A DNA stretch of 64,000 nucleotides from Pontibacillus sp. HMF3514. GTDB lineage: Bacteria; Bacillota; Bacilli; Bacillales; BH030062. Position 1 is the first letter of the stretch; every line of letters starts with the position of its first letter. The stretch covers positions 3,596,001 to 3,660,000 of the forward strand of contig NZ_CP047393.1 in the NCBI RefSeq assembly GCF_009858175.1. Reading direction: 5' to 3'. The translations under genes were made by a program, and so were the position numbers. This document shows, one piece after another, positions 686-5,986 of the stretch. The notes beneath the pieces were generated by a model that was not told the DNA's origin, made no database searches, and saw only the letters and a list, made by a program, of their open reading frames with translations.

Positions 686-1378
686 ATGAATCGTAATGAG
701 ATCAAGGATCATTTCCGAACTGTGCCCTTATTTAAAGAACTATCAGAATCAGAACTAGACCCTTTTATTGAAATCTCCTCATGCAGAATTTACAACCCTA
801 GATCCATTGTGTTTATGCAAGGGGATAAACTGGATCGAGTATTTTTCATACATTCCGGTACTGTGAAGATTTACAAGATGGATCAATCTGGAAAGGAACA
901 AATTGTGTCTGTTCTACAGTCCGGTGAAATGTTTCCTCACGCAGGATTCTTTAGGGGAGGTGACTTTCCAGCCAATGCTGAGATCGTGGAAAAAGCTCAG
1001 TTAATTGTGACACCCATCAAAGAATTTGAAAATATTCTCATTCTATATCCGGAGCTTTGTATCAAGTTATTTCGAGTACTTGGAGAAAAGATTATTGATT
1101 TACACGATCGCCTGGAAGAAAAAATCCTGAATAATACGTACGAGCAAGTCATAAAGCTATTAATTCGCCTCTCTAAAACCAATGGACGTCAATCAGGGGA
1201 TCATTTTATCCTCACGACCCATTTCACGAACCGAGAACTTGCCAAAATGATTGGTACAACAAGAGAAACCGTTAGTCGAACATTAAATCAATTAAAGAAA
1301 CAAAACCTATTAAAAATAGATGAAAAAGGGTATTACATCATCCACCCCGCTACATTAGAAAGGGATCTTATCGTCTAA
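686..1378 (+). CDS. Crp/Fnr family transcription regulator, probably DNR/NnrR-like
   Basis: This 230-residue protein has an N-terminal cyclic-nucleotide-type effector fold (about residues 15-130), a long dimerisation helix and a C-terminal winged helix. The recognition helix reads TTRETVSRTLNQL, carrying the E-xx-SR pattern of FNR-type proteins that read TGTGA half-sites. Only two cysteines are present, at about residues 33 and 125, with no cluster of cysteines at either end. It is therefore not an oxygen-sensing Fe-S FNR of the E. coli or B. subtilis kind. Haem- or NO-responding DNR/NnrR proteins are the closest functional analogy. A ribosome site (gaggtg) precedes the ATG. It sits between its two likely targets, ric and the haem-copper operon, both with matching boxes. 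Effector identity is inference. Confidence 0.88.
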   Translation: MNRNEIKDHFRTVPLFKELSESELDPFIEISSCRIYNPRSIVFMQGDKLDRVFFIHSGTVKIYKMDQSGKEQIVSVLQSGEMFPHAGFFRGGDFPANAEIVEKAQLIVTPIKEFENILILYPELCIKLFRVLGEKIIDLHDRLEEKILNNTYEQVIKLLIRLSKTNGRQSGDHFILTTHFTNRELAKMIGTTRETVSRTLNQLKKQNLLKIDEKGYYIIHPATLERDLIV

Positions 1379-1421: not shown

Positions 1422-1464
1422 TGTGACTCATATCACAAGAACGTAAACGTTTCATTGGTATGCT
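1422..1464 (+). promoter_or_regulatory. FNR/CRP-type box and promoter of ric
   Basis: A perfect TGTGA-CTCATA-TCACA palindrome lies at 1422-1437. Twenty-one bases later comes a weak -10, TATGCT (1459-1464). A start near 1471 puts the box centre at about -41.5, the class II activation position. There is no good -35, as expected of an activator-dependent promoter. The box in front of the haem-copper operon has the same spacing. Confidence 0.8.
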
Positions 1465-1506: not shown

Positions 1507-2208
1507 ATGCAACAAACCTTTAGCGAAACGTCCATCATCCGAGATATTGTCACTCAATTCCCACGAGCAAGTGATTTATTTAAGTCTTATCGAATTGATT
1601 TCTGTTGTGGAGGTAACCGCCCGCTTGTTGAAGCCATTCAGGAAAGAGGCTTATCTTCTGAAGAAGTAGTGGAACAATTAAACACACTCTATCAAGATAC
1701 GAAGGCATTACAAGAAAAAAACATTGATTGGAATTCATCCTCTTCACAAGAGTTAATTAATCACATCGTTAACAAACATCATAAATATTTGAATGAAGAA
1801 CTACCACAGCTAAGTCCCTATGTCACTAAAGTCTTCCGTGTGCACGGACAATCCCAGCCACACTTAGGCACTATCCATAAACTATTTAATGAACTCAAGA
1901 TAGAGCTTGAGCAACACCTTATAAAAGAAGAATTTGAAGACTTCCCTTTACTTCTGGAGTACGAACAAATTCCAAGCATTGAAAATCAAGAGAAATTAAT
2001 GAAAGTGGTGGAAAGCTTAGAGGAAGAACATCAGCATGCTGGAAACCTTCTAAAGGAAATGCGTCAAGTTACGAATGACTTTACACCTCCCCATGATGCA
2101 TGTGGCACGTATCGTCTCGTCTATCAAAGACTAGAAGCACTAGAACAAGATCTATTCGAGCACATTCACTTAGAAAATAATATTTTATTTCCAAGAGCCA
2201 TTTCCTAA
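1507..2208 (+). CDS. ric: Iron-sulfur cluster repair di-iron protein Ric (ScdA/YtfE)
   Basis: This 233-residue protein repairs Fe-S clusters damaged by nitric oxide or oxidants. The N-terminal DUF542/ScdA-N domain carries the CCGG motif (FCCGGNRPL, near residue 36). A hemerythrin-like four-helix domain follows, with His and Glu ligands in IVNKHHKYLNEEL, ELEQHLIKEE, EEEHQHAG and LFEHIHLENNILFP, which would hold the di-iron site. Length is normal for the family. GGAGGG sits 6 bases before the ATG. Expression is probably activated by the neighbouring Crp/Fnr protein through the box at 1422. A strong hairpin terminator follows. Confidence 0.95.
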   Translation: MQQTFSETSIIRDIVTQFPRASDLFKSYRIDFCCGGNRPLVEAIQERGLSSEEVVEQLNTLYQDTKALQEKNIDWNSSSSQELINHIVNKHHKYLNEELPQLSPYVTKVFRVHGQSQPHLGTIHKLFNELKIELEQHLIKEEFEDFPLLLEYEQIPSIENQEKLMKVVESLEEEHQHAGNLLKEMRQVTNDFTPPHDACGTYRLVYQRLEALEQDLFEHIHLENNILFPRAIS

Positions 2209-2330: not shown

Positions 2331-2888
2331 TCATTCGTATTTAGAGGGATCCGTAAAGGTCGTGTATAACAAATAAATTGCAAGACATACACCCATAGCT
2401 GCAGATCCCCAGCCAAGTGTGATTTGATCGATGAGCAAGTAGTTGTTGCACAATTGTTGAGTGGCATTCAGATATAGCCACCCCAAGCCTAAAAACAATA
2501 TTGTGAACAAGATGAAGACAGATTTTTTTAATGTAACTTTAAGTCTCTTCCAACTGTCATAGAGAGGCACTCCCGCTAATAAAAATAAGCTCATAAACTT
2601 AAATACTTCTACACTTGGATACGTTAAAGCATCATCCATAGTCCGCGGAATACTCCAATAGACTGCGATTATGACAAATAACGTAATTCCAGGTACTCCA
2701 TTACCATTCCATTTTTCCCAAAAGTGAGGGAACTGAATTTGAAAGTAACGACCAAATAAGGCCCCAGCAATGACCAACAACGGCATTTGCATGTGCATAT
2801 GAACGATCATAATTGATTCTAATAATGTCACCACAGGAGGAAGTGATAAAATGATGAAAAGTAAGAGGCCGATTAATGATTGTTTCAT
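2331..2888 (-). CDS. Multi-pass membrane protein, distant CtaG-like candidate
   Basis: This 185-residue protein has about five or six hydrophobic segments and a His/Met-rich motif, IMIVHMHMQMP (about residues 27-37). The motif resembles the metal-ligand helix of caa3-type CtaG copper assembly proteins. The start overlaps the sco stop by 4 bases (ATGA-type coupling), and a strong AAGGGGGAGG ribosome site lies inside sco. It is the last gene of the haem-copper operon. Position and motif suggest a role in CuA or CuB assembly. The family assignment is tentative because the sequence is short for CtaG. Confidence 0.6.
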   Translation of the reverse strand: MKQSLIGLLLFIILSLPPVVTLLESIMIVHMHMQMPLLVIAGALFGRYFQIQFPHFWEKWNGNGVPGITLFVIIAVYWSIPRTMDDALTYPSVEVFKFMSLFLLAGVPLYDSWKRLKVTLKKSVFILFTILFLGLGWLYLNATQQLCNNYLLIDQITLGWGSAAMGVCLAIYLLYTTFTDPSKYE

Positions 2889-3523
2889 TTCTTTCCTCCC
2901 CCTTGTTCAAGCAGTGCAACAATTGTATCCGCTGCTTCTTCAACTTTCGTATAATCCATGACTTCCGTAAGAGCCCCTTTTCGATTCACTAAATAAAAGG
3001 CAGAATTATGCGCGAAATTCCCATTATTATCAGGAATCACAATAACACCAAACACATCTAATAACGATTCCAATTCAACTGAATCCGGAACCCTTACCAT
3101 CCTCCACGTATCTCCATCCACCTTGAAATATTTTTGATAGGAATGTAACGTAGCGGGATCATCCCGACTTGTGTCAAAACTAACACTTAAAAATACAATA
3201 TCTTCTCCTAAGTATGTCTTCGGGATACGATCATAGACACGTTCCATATTTCTTTCTAGCTGAGGACAAACTGTTGAACAAGCTGTGTAAAAAAACGTCA
3301 TCAACACATATTTCCCTTTAAATTTAGAGGAGAGGTATGATTGCCCTTCACTATCCTCTAATGTTATTTCCGGAAGCTGTGGTTTTTCCTCCATTAATTG
3401 ATTCACTCTAGCTTCTTCTGCAGTAAATACGCGAAACCCATCTGTTCCTAGATAGAACAATATACCTCCAAATAGTAATACAAGTAGCAGAGCCACTCCT
3501 TGATGTCTATTATTCACCACCAC
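2885..3523 (-). CDS. SCO1/SenC family copper chaperone
   Basis: A membrane-anchored thioredoxin-fold protein with one N-terminal transmembrane helix (VALLLVLLFGGILFYLG). The copper motif is TACSTVCP (C-x3-C, near residues 82 and 86), with a distal His in NFAHNSAF. Sco proteins load or reduce the CuA site of subunit II, which this operon encodes. A run of GTG codons makes the start uncertain. The AGAAGG ribosome site is best placed for the GTG at 3523; in-frame GTGs at 3532 and 3529 lie inside or too near it. It is separated from the catalytic subunit by a hairpin and overlaps the following gene. Confidence 0.92.
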   Translation of the reverse strand: MVVNNRHQGVALLLVLLFGGILFYLGTDGFRVFTAEEARVNQLMEEKPQLPEITLEDSEGQSYLSSKFKGKYVLMTFFYTACSTVCPQLERNMERVYDRIPKTYLGEDIVFLSVSFDTSRDDPATLHSYQKYFKVDGDTWRMVRVPDSVELESLLDVFGVIVIPDNNGNFAHNSAFYLVNRKGALTEVMDYTKVEEAADTIVALLEQGGGKK

Positions 3524-3542
3524 GACCACCACCTTCTAATGT

Positions 3543-3591: not shown

Positions 3592-5271
3592 TCACCACGT
3601 TTTAATAGGTGGTGATCCTGGGGGAGCGTTGATTGTGAAGTCCACAATTGGAATCACATATCCCATGGCAATCAGTAATAGCATAATCACAATCCAATTT
3701 CCCCAACGTTCTGTCCAATATGGAGTATAGGTATCATGTTCTTCCCTTTCAGCGATCGGAAATTCTGTTTCCCCTTTCGGAGCACGGAACATGAGATGGA
3801 AAACAGCATACACTTGAAGCAGTACACCTACAATTAATAGAACCCCACCGATTGCAATCAAGATCATGAATGGGTCCCACCCCAATGCAGTAGCACTTTC
3901 TCCATAAGTGGTATAAGACGTTCTGCGCGGTGCACCAAGTAACCCAACATAGTGCATAGCCCCTGCCATAAACAGCATTCCAGCTGTCCAAATGATAGTC
4001 TGAATGACTCCTAATCGATTGATCTTAGGAGTTAATGTACGATTAGAAATATAAGGAATTAACCAATAACTAATCCCGAAGAATGTTAAGATAACCGAAG
4101 TTCCTACCGTTATGTGAAAATGGCCTACAATCCACATCGTGTTATGCACGACTTGGTTCAATTGGTTCGTTGATTGAACAATCCCACCAGCGCCGCCAAC
4201 TATGAAGGCAATCATGGCTATCATAGGGGCCAAGAACCGAACATCACCCCAAGGTAGTTTTTTGTACCAACCTAATAAACCTTTTCCCCCTTTCTTCCTA
4301 CCTGTCCGCTCAAATACAGAGAACATTGCAAATGCCGTCATTAATGATGGGAATGCAATTGAAAGACTCATAAAGACATGTAAGAATTTCACTTCTTGTG
4401 AGATGCCGGGATCAACGATTTGATGATGAAAACCACCCGGTATATTCATAACAACAAGCAGAATAACCACAATACGAGTTAATGTATCACTAAAACGGCG
4501 ACCTCCTATAACTTTCGGAACAATTACATACCATGCAGAGACTGCTGTCAGATACCAGATGTTAACCAATGTATGTCCAAATGCCCAAAACAGGGTCCGA
4601 CTTAACATCACATTAATCGTTTCTACCCATCCGAAAGCCCAAGGAATAATCATGAAAACCTCTATGGCTACAGGAATACTCCCAAAAAACAAGAGAACAA
4701 ACACACCTGTTGCAAAGAATGAAAAAATCGGTAAACTTTGTCCGCGATTGTACTTTCTCCAATGAGCAACATTGATAAATGCCCCAAACGCACACATCCA
4801 CACCCCTACAATAATAAGCACTAATCCAATGTAGAAATAAGGTGATGCAGCCATTGGAGGATAGAACGTATATAAAACAGACGCTTGATTCATCAGAATT
4901 GGAATAACGGCAAACACAAAACCAACAATCTTCAAACTAAACCCAATCCACGCCATCTTTCTTACTTTTGGAAGAAGACCTCCTAATGTGTGAGACAGAC
5001 CGGCATAAAAATAACCGATCGTAAAAAAGGCCGTTAACACAAGAACTAGTAACACTCCGTGTGCCGTTAAAATCTGATAATAATTTAACCATGAAGGGAG
5101 TTCTAACATCCCTGCACGATTAAGTCCTTGTAATAACCCTAATACCCCCCCAAGCAGTAATGCTACAAACGCTACAAATAGATATGATTTCGATATTCTA
5201 GCATCCTCACGCTGAAGTCCCATGTACCGATTTACTTTTTGTATATAGGATTCATTAAGAGCTGTTTCCAT
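3592..5271 (-). CDS. B-family (ba3-like) haem-copper catalytic subunit I, probable bNOR/CuA-type nitric oxide reductase
   Basis: This 559-residue protein has about 13 transmembrane segments. Low-spin haem ligand H71 (TAHGV), CuB ligands H233 and H282/H283 (GFHHQ), and the haem pair H384/H386 (VGHFHITVG) are all present. It aligns with the Thermus ba3 subunit along its length (RTLFW, VPSLMTAF-like, GGAGGIV). The oxidase signature HPxVY, however, reads HTLVN here. Asn237 replaces the Tyr that crosslinks to His233, and the K-channel Tyr244 equivalent is Val. Loss of this Tyr is known for NO reductases of the superfamily, including the Bacillus CuA-NOR/bNOR group. These are usually annotated as ba3 oxidase subunit I. 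Context (Ric, Crp/Fnr box) favours NO reduction. A B-family O2 reductase remains possible until tested. Confidence 0.93.
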   Translation of the reverse strand: METALNESYIQKVNRYMGLQREDARISKSYLFVAFVALLLGGVLGLLQGLNRAGMLELPSWLNYYQILTAHGVLLVLVLTAFFTIGYFYAGLSHTLGGLLPKVRKMAWIGFSLKIVGFVFAVIPILMNQASVLYTFYPPMAASPYFYIGLVLIIVGVWMCAFGAFINVAHWRKYNRGQSLPIFSFFATGVFVLLFFGSIPVAIEVFMIIPWAFGWVETINVMLSRTLFWAFGHTLVNIWYLTAVSAWYVIVPKVIGGRRFSDTLTRIVVILLVVMNIPGGFHHQIVDPGISQEVKFLHVFMSLSIAFPSLMTAFAMFSVFERTGRKKGGKGLLGWYKKLPWGDVRFLAPMIAMIAFIVGGAGGIVQSTNQLNQVVHNTMWIVGHFHITVGTSVILTFFGISYWLIPYISNRTLTPKINRLGVIQTIIWTAGMLFMAGAMHYVGLLGAPRRTSYTTYGESATALGWDPFMILIAIGGVLLIVGVLLQVYAVFHLMFRAPKGETEFPIAEREEHDTYTPYWTERWGNWIVIMLLLIAMGYVIPIVDFTINAPPGSPPIKTW

Positions 5272-5284
5272 TGTTACCCCCCCT

Positions 5285-5746
5285 TTATTTCACATAAATC
5301 CTTGTACTCATCAATTGGTGACCTGCCCCACAATACTCATTACATAAAACCAAATATTCACCAGGACGATCAAATTTCTGAGTGATTTTTTGAATATGAC
5401 CAGGCATAACCATAGCATTAATATTTGTACCAGCTACCTGAAAACCATGCGTTACGTCTTTTGAAGTTAAAATAAAATGAACTGTTGCACCTGCAGGAAT
5501 TTCTATATCACTTGGGTTAAAACTAAATATTTGCATAGTCATAACAACTTCATATTCATTTTCTCCAATTTTTTTAATCCCTGGTTGATCGAATGGTGCT
5601 GTTTCATCTACCCTCTGTGGATCGATTGTCTCACCGTGACTAGGTGGACCCATTTCCAAAGCAAAGGTTTGATATCCTGTAGCAAGCATGAAAGCCATTA
5701 ACATACCAAAACTTAGTGCAAGCCATATAATTTCAGATCTACTCAT
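5285..5746 (-). CDS. Subunit II with CuA centre (ba3-type, CbaB-like)
   Basis: A short 153-residue CuA subunit with one N-terminal transmembrane helix and a cupredoxin domain. The full CuA ligand set is visible: H100 (THGFQV), C135, E137, C139 and H143 in CNEYCGAGH, and M146. It passes electrons from a c-type cytochrome or quinol to subunit I. The short length is typical of B-family enzymes. A strong AAAGGGGGGG ribosome site precedes the ATG. It lies 13 bases upstream of subunit I and directly downstream of the tiny subunit IIa gene. Confidence 0.95.
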   Translation of the reverse strand: MSRSEIIWLALSFGMLMAFMLATGYQTFALEMGPPSHGETIDPQRVDETAPFDQPGIKKIGENEYEVVMTMQIFSFNPSDIEIPAGATVHFILTSKDVTHGFQVAGTNINAMVMPGHIQKITQKFDRPGEYLVLCNEYCGAGHQLMSTRIYVK

Positions 5747-5911: not shown

Positions 5912-5943
5912 TGTGATCATCCCCTTTATATAAGTTTGTCTTC

Positions 5944-5986
5944 AGCTTAATTGATAACGTTTTTCAATGATGTGAAGTAAATCACA
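5944..5986 (-). promoter_or_regulatory. FNR/CRP-type box and promoter of the haem-copper operon
   Basis: On the minus strand TGTGA-TTTACT-TCACA (5986-5971) is followed after exactly 21 bases by TAAGCT (5949-5944), a weak -10. The layout matches the ric promoter base for base in spacing, which points to one activator, most likely the regulator at 686-1378. Confidence 0.8.

Follow-up and report, generated by a model that had tools for sequence, protein, structure and literature searches.

Among described NO reductases, the closest systems are the qCuANOR type I clusters of Bacillus azotoformans and B. bataviensis (here Neobacillus bataviensis), in which the genes follow the order cbaC-cbaB-cbaA-senC-cbaD (PMC3475470). 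The cbaA1 gene of N. bataviensis was published as a CuA-type NO reductase, and both qCuANOR types are reported from this organism (PMC3475470). The CuANOR of B. azotoformans carries Asn at the position of the cross-linking Tyr (PMC3475470; PMC8756737, Table A4) and is electrogenic (PMC5826923). The same Table A4 lists Asn for sNOR as well, together with Gln for eNOR, Asp for gNOR and Glu for cNOR and qNOR; hence, Asn alone does not name the family. Moreover, ba3 oxidases themselves slowly reduce NO (PMC8780969), and thus Asn at residue 237 is no proof of a substrate switch. Enzymes of the CuANOR kind, now called bNOR, were counted in 123 of the 433 NOR- or NOS-bearing Bacillota genomes, and KEGG labels them coxA (PMC11388526), in agreement with the view of the first-pass annotation that they are routinely annotated as cytochrome oxidase.

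The locus compared here lies in the window, a 64-kb stretch of the Pontibacillus sp. HMF3514 genome, and comprises the following features:

686..1378, plus strand: Crp/FNR-family regulator (Pfam cNMP_binding and HTH_Crp_2)
1422..1437: Crp/FNR-type box TGTGACTCATATCACA, ahead of ric
1507..2208, plus strand: ric/scdA, iron-sulphur cluster repair di-iron protein (TIGR03652, 279.6 bits, cut-off 204.7)
2331..2888, minus strand: cbaD, multi-span membrane protein of the putative bNOR cluster (place in cluster)
2885..3532, minus strand: senC, SCO1/SenC-type protein (Pfam SCO1-SenC, E 1.8e-17)
3592..5271, minus strand: cbaA, putative bNOR catalytic subunit I, 559 aa (COX1 Pfam match, ba3 alignment, tree)
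5285..5746, minus strand: cbaB, CuA subunit II, 153 aa, with a single N-terminal hydrophobic helix
5762..5911, minus strand: cbaC, small single-helix peptide, 49 aa (place, size)
5971..5986: Crp/FNR-type box TGTGAAGTAAATCACA, upstream of the oxidase-like operon and 224 nt from the start of cbaB

The first-pass annotation had taken 3592-5271 for subunit I of a probable CuA-type NO reductase; these coordinates are correct, and the 559-aa open frame runs on the minus strand. The published order cbaC-cbaB-cbaA-senC-cbaD is present in the window. The cbaC gene was assigned from place, size and single helix, its place and size being like those of cbaC1 (PMC3475470), and an in-frame ATG at 5920 would give 52 aa. 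The cbaD gene was assigned from place and size; its product had no Pfam or NCBIfam match and shows 4 membrane spans by crude hydropathy. Gene order, Asn for Tyr and a one-helix CuA subunit are shared with the clusters of B. azotoformans (BAZO_06394-06409) and N. bataviensis (BABA_00215-00230) (PMC3475470). However, the published N. bataviensis cluster has an adjacent ctaB (PMC3475470), which was not recognised among the window ORFs read. Unlike the published bNOR clusters, that of the window adjoins ric, a Crp-type regulator and a NasC-type island, and unlike in the published bNOR systems, no NirK, NosZ or NarG scored over cut-off in the genome.

The cbaA protein matches Pfam COX1 (E 5e-82), and no NCBIfam model scored above cut-off. 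Its best phmmer match among solved structures was Thermus thermophilus ba3 (2qpd_A, E 1.1e-96), at about 33% identity. Helix VI of the protein is RTLFWAFGHTLVNIWYLTAVSAWY, in which HTLVN aligns without gaps with HPIVY of ba3. Native Thermus numbering, which is the 2qpd index minus 6 as derived from the 1ehk row, is the same as that of the window protein for the residues compared between 233 and 386. The gap-free alignment confirms what had been claimed for this helix, namely HTLVN in place of HPxVY: the residues at the Tyr237 and K-channel Tyr244 positions of oxygen reductases are Asn237 and Val244, whereas Tyr248, Ser309 and Thr312 are retained. Further differences from ba3 are Pro234 to Thr, Phe238 to Ile, Leu240 to Tyr, Pro242 to Thr and Val279 to Gly. 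The six histidines of a B-family haem-copper subunit I (H71, H233, H282, H283, H384 and H386) are all present, again as claimed, and are invariant in 185 of 185 aligned B-type rows. An AlphaFold2 model built from an 83-row alignment reached a mean pLDDT of 87.9 and a pTM of 0.90, and its first 20 Foldseek matches were all T. thermophilus ba3 chains (TM by query 0.86-0.89), followed at match 21 by the haem-copper terminal oxidase dimer 7deg. The predicted fold, the six histidines, the CuA ligands and Tyr248, Ser309 and Thr312 are those of ba3 (2qpd, 3s8f).

In the cbaB protein, residues H100, C135, E137, C139, H143 and M146, which we take to be the CuA ligands, are invariant in 81 of 81 rows with the window included, and the earlier claim that subunit II keeps every ligand stands. 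cNOR and qNOR are not known to have CuA, whereas CuA ligands and Asn237 are present together here. Glu5 of the same protein, likewise invariant in all 81 rows, occupies the place of Thermus subunit II residue 15, presumably the K-path entrance, when the alignment is extended by two residues (query 7 to 1ehk_B 17). The N-terminus agrees at 14 of 20 residues with that printed for the purified B. azotoformans subunit II (PMC3475470); the other B-type CuA subunit of the genome matched the printed sequence at no more than 7 positions over 14 ungapped offsets.

Matches to cbaA at E 1e-40 or better were found in 127 of 299 genomes of the class. Residue 237 was read in 90 of the class-set matches listed, and was Asn in 12 (the window's own and 11 relatives at 57-78% identity) and Tyr in 78 (at most 55%). 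A scan of named genomes gave 232 relatives, of which the best 80 were 71-97% identical, nearest being Pontibacillus marinus (97%), with Asn237 in all 80. The scan patterns, TLFW[AS]FGH and N[IV][PT]GGFHH, do not contain residue 237, and choosing the best 80 of 232 with them biases the scan set towards this clade. The relatives read at 57-97% identity, from many genera, thus have Asn237 in 91 of 91 cases. Its presence in 80 of 80 scan and 11 of 11 class-set relatives read at identities of 57% and above shows that this residue did not arise from a sequencing error. The 185-row alignment holds 92 Asn237 rows, at least 3 of which duplicate another row, 93 Tyr237 rows and no other residue at this position. 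As these groups are defined by residue 237 itself, independent support comes from the tree and from the identity gap (at least 57% versus at most 55%).

For the tree, 78 of the 185 rows were used, 33 with Asn and 45 with Tyr; column 237 was masked, the method was a quick one with SH-aLRT and without bootstrap, and the root was set at the midpoint. All Asn237 rows came together in a single branch with an SH-aLRT of 100, surrounded by Tyr237 enzymes that for the most part belong to the same class, and one change at residue 237 accounts for the sample. N. bataviensis LMG 21833 (L041) belongs to this branch, from which Tyr237 rows are absent. The best match in that genome (G299:C2:45070-46749, 77% identity) is at the published place of cbaA1, contig02_46749_45067 (PMC3475470), and the window protein therefore groups with a published member. 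B. azotoformans is absent from the tree, and the link to its enzyme runs via N. bataviensis and the printed N-terminus, not via subunit I itself. Grouping inside a clade of proven O2 reductases had been named beforehand as an outcome against the NO reductase reading: the branch does sit among Tyr237 B-type enzymes, but it is separate from them and holds the published CuANOR.

The cluster is mostly kept across the 80 scan loci, in which tblastn found cbaB in 80, senC in 77, cbaD in 77 and cbaC in 65. Three loci have neither senC nor cbaD: L098 ends just past cbaA, whereas L043 and L055 do not. The deepest Asn237 row (L018:1501-3126, 57% identity) has Met240; neither a good box nor a match to senC or cbaD was seen in its locus, and it is possibly an early form of bNOR. 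Two records stand apart by their titles, Arthrobacter beigongshangensis (L040) and Pseudomonas sp. ISL-84 (L069), with proteins 79% and 78% identical to that of the window. The former groups with Sporosarcina and Filibacter in the tree. These may be mislabelled or contaminated assemblies, or cases of recent transfer.

Besides Asn237, several residues mark the clade. Its 92 rows have Thr234 in 92, Ile238 in 91, Tyr240 in 90, Thr242 in 88 and Ser245, Asn276 and Gly279 in 92 each. In the 93 Tyr237 rows, residue 234 is Pro (79) or Ala (14), 238 is Phe (93), 240 is Leu (93), 242 is Pro (91), 245 is mostly Met or Ile, 276 is Ser (92) and 279 is Val (89) or Ile (4). The constancy of 276 and 279 arises partly by selection, because both lie in the second scan pattern. 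Residue 244 is Tyr in all 93 Tyr237 rows, and in the Asn237 clade it is Val (70), Ile (12), Leu (5) or Thr (5).

Tyr240 occurs in no Tyr237 row, and the two exceptions in the Asn237 clade have Met (L018) and Phe (L080). On an ideal helix VI, it is one turn below Asn237, offset from that residue by 60 degrees and 4.5 A towards the side that carries residues 233 and 244; its distance from His233 along the axis is about 10.5 A. A tyrosine supplied to the active site from another helix had been proposed as evidence against an NO reductase; none was found near the site in the 185 rows, where the only clade-specific Tyr close by is Tyr240, on helix VI itself. No clade-specific Tyr was seen on helix VII in these rows. 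Tyr30, Tyr87, Tyr89 and Tyr488 are also commoner in Asn237 rows, but they lie on other helices, Tyr87 and Tyr89 being on helix II, 16-18 residues past H71. We therefore judge Tyr240 to be the sole clade-specific Tyr near the active site, as far as aligned sequences can indicate. As a cross-link partner it was rejected, and it was retained as a proton-path candidate. On ideal helix geometry, Tyr240 could stand in for the lost hydroxyls. It is a tentative idea, and one we rather doubt, that the bNOR tyrosine has been moved and not lost, with the hydroxyl of Tyr240 replacing Tyr237 and Tyr244 as the last proton donor to haem-CuB. If so, the enzyme would be an electrogenic NO reductase with a K-channel of new layout, and Tyr240 would bear on why CuANOR is electrogenic whereas cNOR is not.

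The locus is placed with bNOR (CuANOR, qCuANOR type I), as the first-pass annotation had proposed, by its position in the tree, its residue signature, its gene order and the agreement with the N-terminal sequence of subunit II purified from B. azotoformans. We give a probability of about 0.88 to this reading, that is, to an NO reductase descended from a ba3-type oxygen reductase. The interpretation is supported and its kind is already known, because Asn is listed as the CuANOR residue (PMC8756737); the locus adds a member to an already described group and the group itself is not new. Our literature search found no paper combining Pontibacillus and nitric oxide reductase. Much of the K-path is as in ba3, and so are the fold, the CuA site and the histidines; the enzyme may instead be a B-family oxygen reductase minus the cross-linking Tyr, which still reduces mainly O2, maybe with high affinity or NO tolerance, and in which Tyr240 has taken the redox role of Tyr237. 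The presence of Tyr240 in 90 of 92 Asn237 rows, against Leu in all 93 Tyr237 rows, fits such a replacement. Counted against it are the two Asn237 rows that do without Tyr240, the separation of about 10.5 A between residue 240 and His233 along an ideal helix, the place of the published N. bataviensis CuANOR within the branch, and a gene order shared with the NO reductase purified from B. azotoformans (PMC3475470). Accordingly, we regard a retained O2 reductase as improbable.

Since Asn is listed at this position for sNOR (qCuANOR type II) too (PMC8756737, Table A4), membership of that or another B-related NOR family was weighed as well. The type II subunit I of B. azotoformans is encoded by 1482 bp (about 494 aa), versus 559 aa here, and type II subunit II has two N-terminal helices (PMC3475470), versus one here. 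A search of N. bataviensis at E 1e-8 returned only the type I enzyme and a Tyr237 enzyme. Asn is also at odds with the Gln of eNOR, the Asp of gNOR and the Glu of cNOR and qNOR (PMC8756737, Table A4). On residue, size or subunits, all five families were rejected, sNOR being set apart by its published description, and we consider another NOR family very improbable. The loss of two key tyrosines could also be read as the mark of a decaying or inactive oxidase copy. This is scarcely credible for a full-length frame that is 97% identical to that of P. marinus, shares Asn237 with 91 of 91 relatives and lies in a mostly kept operon.

The first-pass annotation had further drawn support from an FNR-type box common to the operon and ric. 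Both boxes are real and exact: TGTGA-N6-TCACA occurs 2 times in the 64 kb, with an expected mean of 0.11 and at least 2 sites in 2 of 100 shuffles. When two mismatches are allowed, 38 sites are seen versus 34.6 expected in the window, which is chance level, and so only exact sites carry weight. In the 500 bases before cbaB of the 80 scan loci, the exact box is present in 15 loci versus 0.0 expected from resampled sequence, and a box with at most one mismatch is present in 64 of the 80 versus 1.32 expected, mostly 208-272 bases from cbaB. It is absent within one mismatch from the other 16 loci, N. bataviensis among them, and present in 9 of the 11 further Asn237 loci of the class set. Although conserved in most bNOR operons, the box is not exclusive to them, because 10 of 28 Tyr237-type operons, a control without shuffles of its own, have one with at most one mismatch (2 exact), 271-405 bases away. 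Moreover, ric is near bNOR in only 4 of 80 scan loci, a further point against the bNOR reading. No title reporting a box ahead of bNOR was found in the literature search. The regulator at 686..1378 is one candidate ligand of the boxes.

Boxes are also frequent upstream of the window, in a stretch of 16 kb (L187) that overlaps the first 2 kb of the window with its own last 2 kb and includes the following:

L187:1-6178: nitrate island comprising two NarK-type transporters, an ORF resembling moaA (by eye) and, at L187:1351-2082, a Crp/FNR regulator with the C-terminal sequence CDHCPVDICVID
L187:7265-11679: NasC-like molybdoenzyme operon, upstream of the window by about 2.3 to 6.7 kb

The island also holds a 150-aa ORF like a lone cNMP domain (by eye). 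Nine boxes with at most one mismatch were counted in L187 versus 0.58 expected, eight of them intergenic and one inside the Crp-type gene of the window. The eight stand ahead of moaA and the Crp/FNR protein with a Cys-rich tail, the short cNMP-like ORF, the two NarK-type transporters, a 190-aa ORF, the NasC-like operon (two boxes), a radical SAM gene and ric. The NasC-like molybdoenzyme itself has 718 aa and scores 912 bits versus a cut-off of 1100. Its operon, beside the NarK transporters, also encodes a ferredoxin-type 4Fe-4S protein, a Rieske protein with a weak Tat-like signal and a membrane protein with weak, below-cut-off resemblance to both QmoC and NarI, and is possibly a quinol-linked nitrate reductase of unusual make. 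Matches to this membrane protein occur in 31 of 298 genomes of the class; at the three loci with a reported stop that were read (L230, L234, L235), the stop is the gene's own end. The window ORF at 44-670 is only the 3' part of the radical SAM gene (TIGR04053, L187:13537-14670, 522 bits versus cut-off 395), which starts about 0.46 kb before the window.

Elsewhere in the genome, narG, nirK, nosZ and nirB gave no match over cut-off. The best NirK match is partial (E 3.4e-18), and two proteins behind nirK matches were rejected as NirK, being CopA/laccase-like multicopper oxidases. A cytochrome d1-like match of 24.2 bits, or 38.7 with its neighbours (cut-off 25.5), was not accepted as nirS, and no convincing nirS was found in the genome. 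The curated TIGR cut-off for NirK was passed by none of the 28 bNOR genomes tested (28 of the 80 of the scan set), and taken alone it is a poor test because Bacillota NirK scores below it. A full-length NirK-like match (E below 1e-50) was present in 13 of these 28, two with an in-frame stop, and absent from the other 15, P. marinus included, as well as from the genome studied here. Hence, a source of NO is not evident, which counts against the bNOR reading. A flavohaemoglobin over cut-off could also handle NO, and was likewise counted against it.

The same genome has three further COX1 proteins scoring like A-type oxidases and a separate Tyr237 B-type oxidase (L004:941-3117) with a CuA subunit, the latter oxidase being counted in favour of the bNOR reading. 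This B-type oxidase and a Geobacillus stearothermophilus one (L177) have the same kind of subunits I and II as the window, with subunit I 51-53% identical and the motif HPLVYFWLLPAY; no senC or cbaD match was found in about 1.2 kb downstream at the L004 locus. L177 is on a plasmid (CP008935.1), where the ba3-type subunit I stretch coincides with no annotated feature and the match covers 81% of the query. At a sixth COX1 match (L006, 24.9 bits, with a stop), the locus contains no oxidase-like ORF of 80 aa or more.

The observed residues, gene order, tree, boxes and predicted fold suggest a scheme with NO as the presumed substrate. Electrons would come from menaquinol or cytochrome c, and pass from CuA (CbaB) via the low-spin haem (H71/H386) to the haem (H384)-CuB (H233/H282/H283) site, where 2 NO + 2 e- + 2 H+ -> N2O + H2O would proceed. 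The His-Tyr cofactor may have been given up because there is no O-O bond to break, and the pocket may gain room for a second NO from the replacement of Tyr by Asn237, together with that of Val by Gly279 and of Phe by Ile238 nearby. Protons would probably be cytoplasmic and follow a rebuilt K-like path through Glu5 of subunit II, Tyr248, Ser309 and Thr312, without Tyr244. Through such a path the enzyme would be electrogenic, as is that of B. azotoformans (PMC5826923). CbaC may be an accessory helix and CbaD an assembly or accessory protein, and the SCO1/SenC-type protein probably delivers copper to CuA. A Crp/FNR-type regulator may switch on the operon jointly with ric and the nitrate island.

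For the organism, the sequence-based reading is that, when O2 is low, bNOR most likely serves to remove NO or to respire it; our guess is that this NO has an outside source or derives from nitrite that the nitrate island produces. As KEGG calls bNOR genes cytochrome oxidase, the N2O-forming ability of such bacteria is missed. The marks Thr234, Asn237, Ile238, Tyr240, Thr242, Ser245, Asn276 and Gly279 could serve as a simple bNOR filter, and the conserved Crp/FNR-type box offers a testable regulon.
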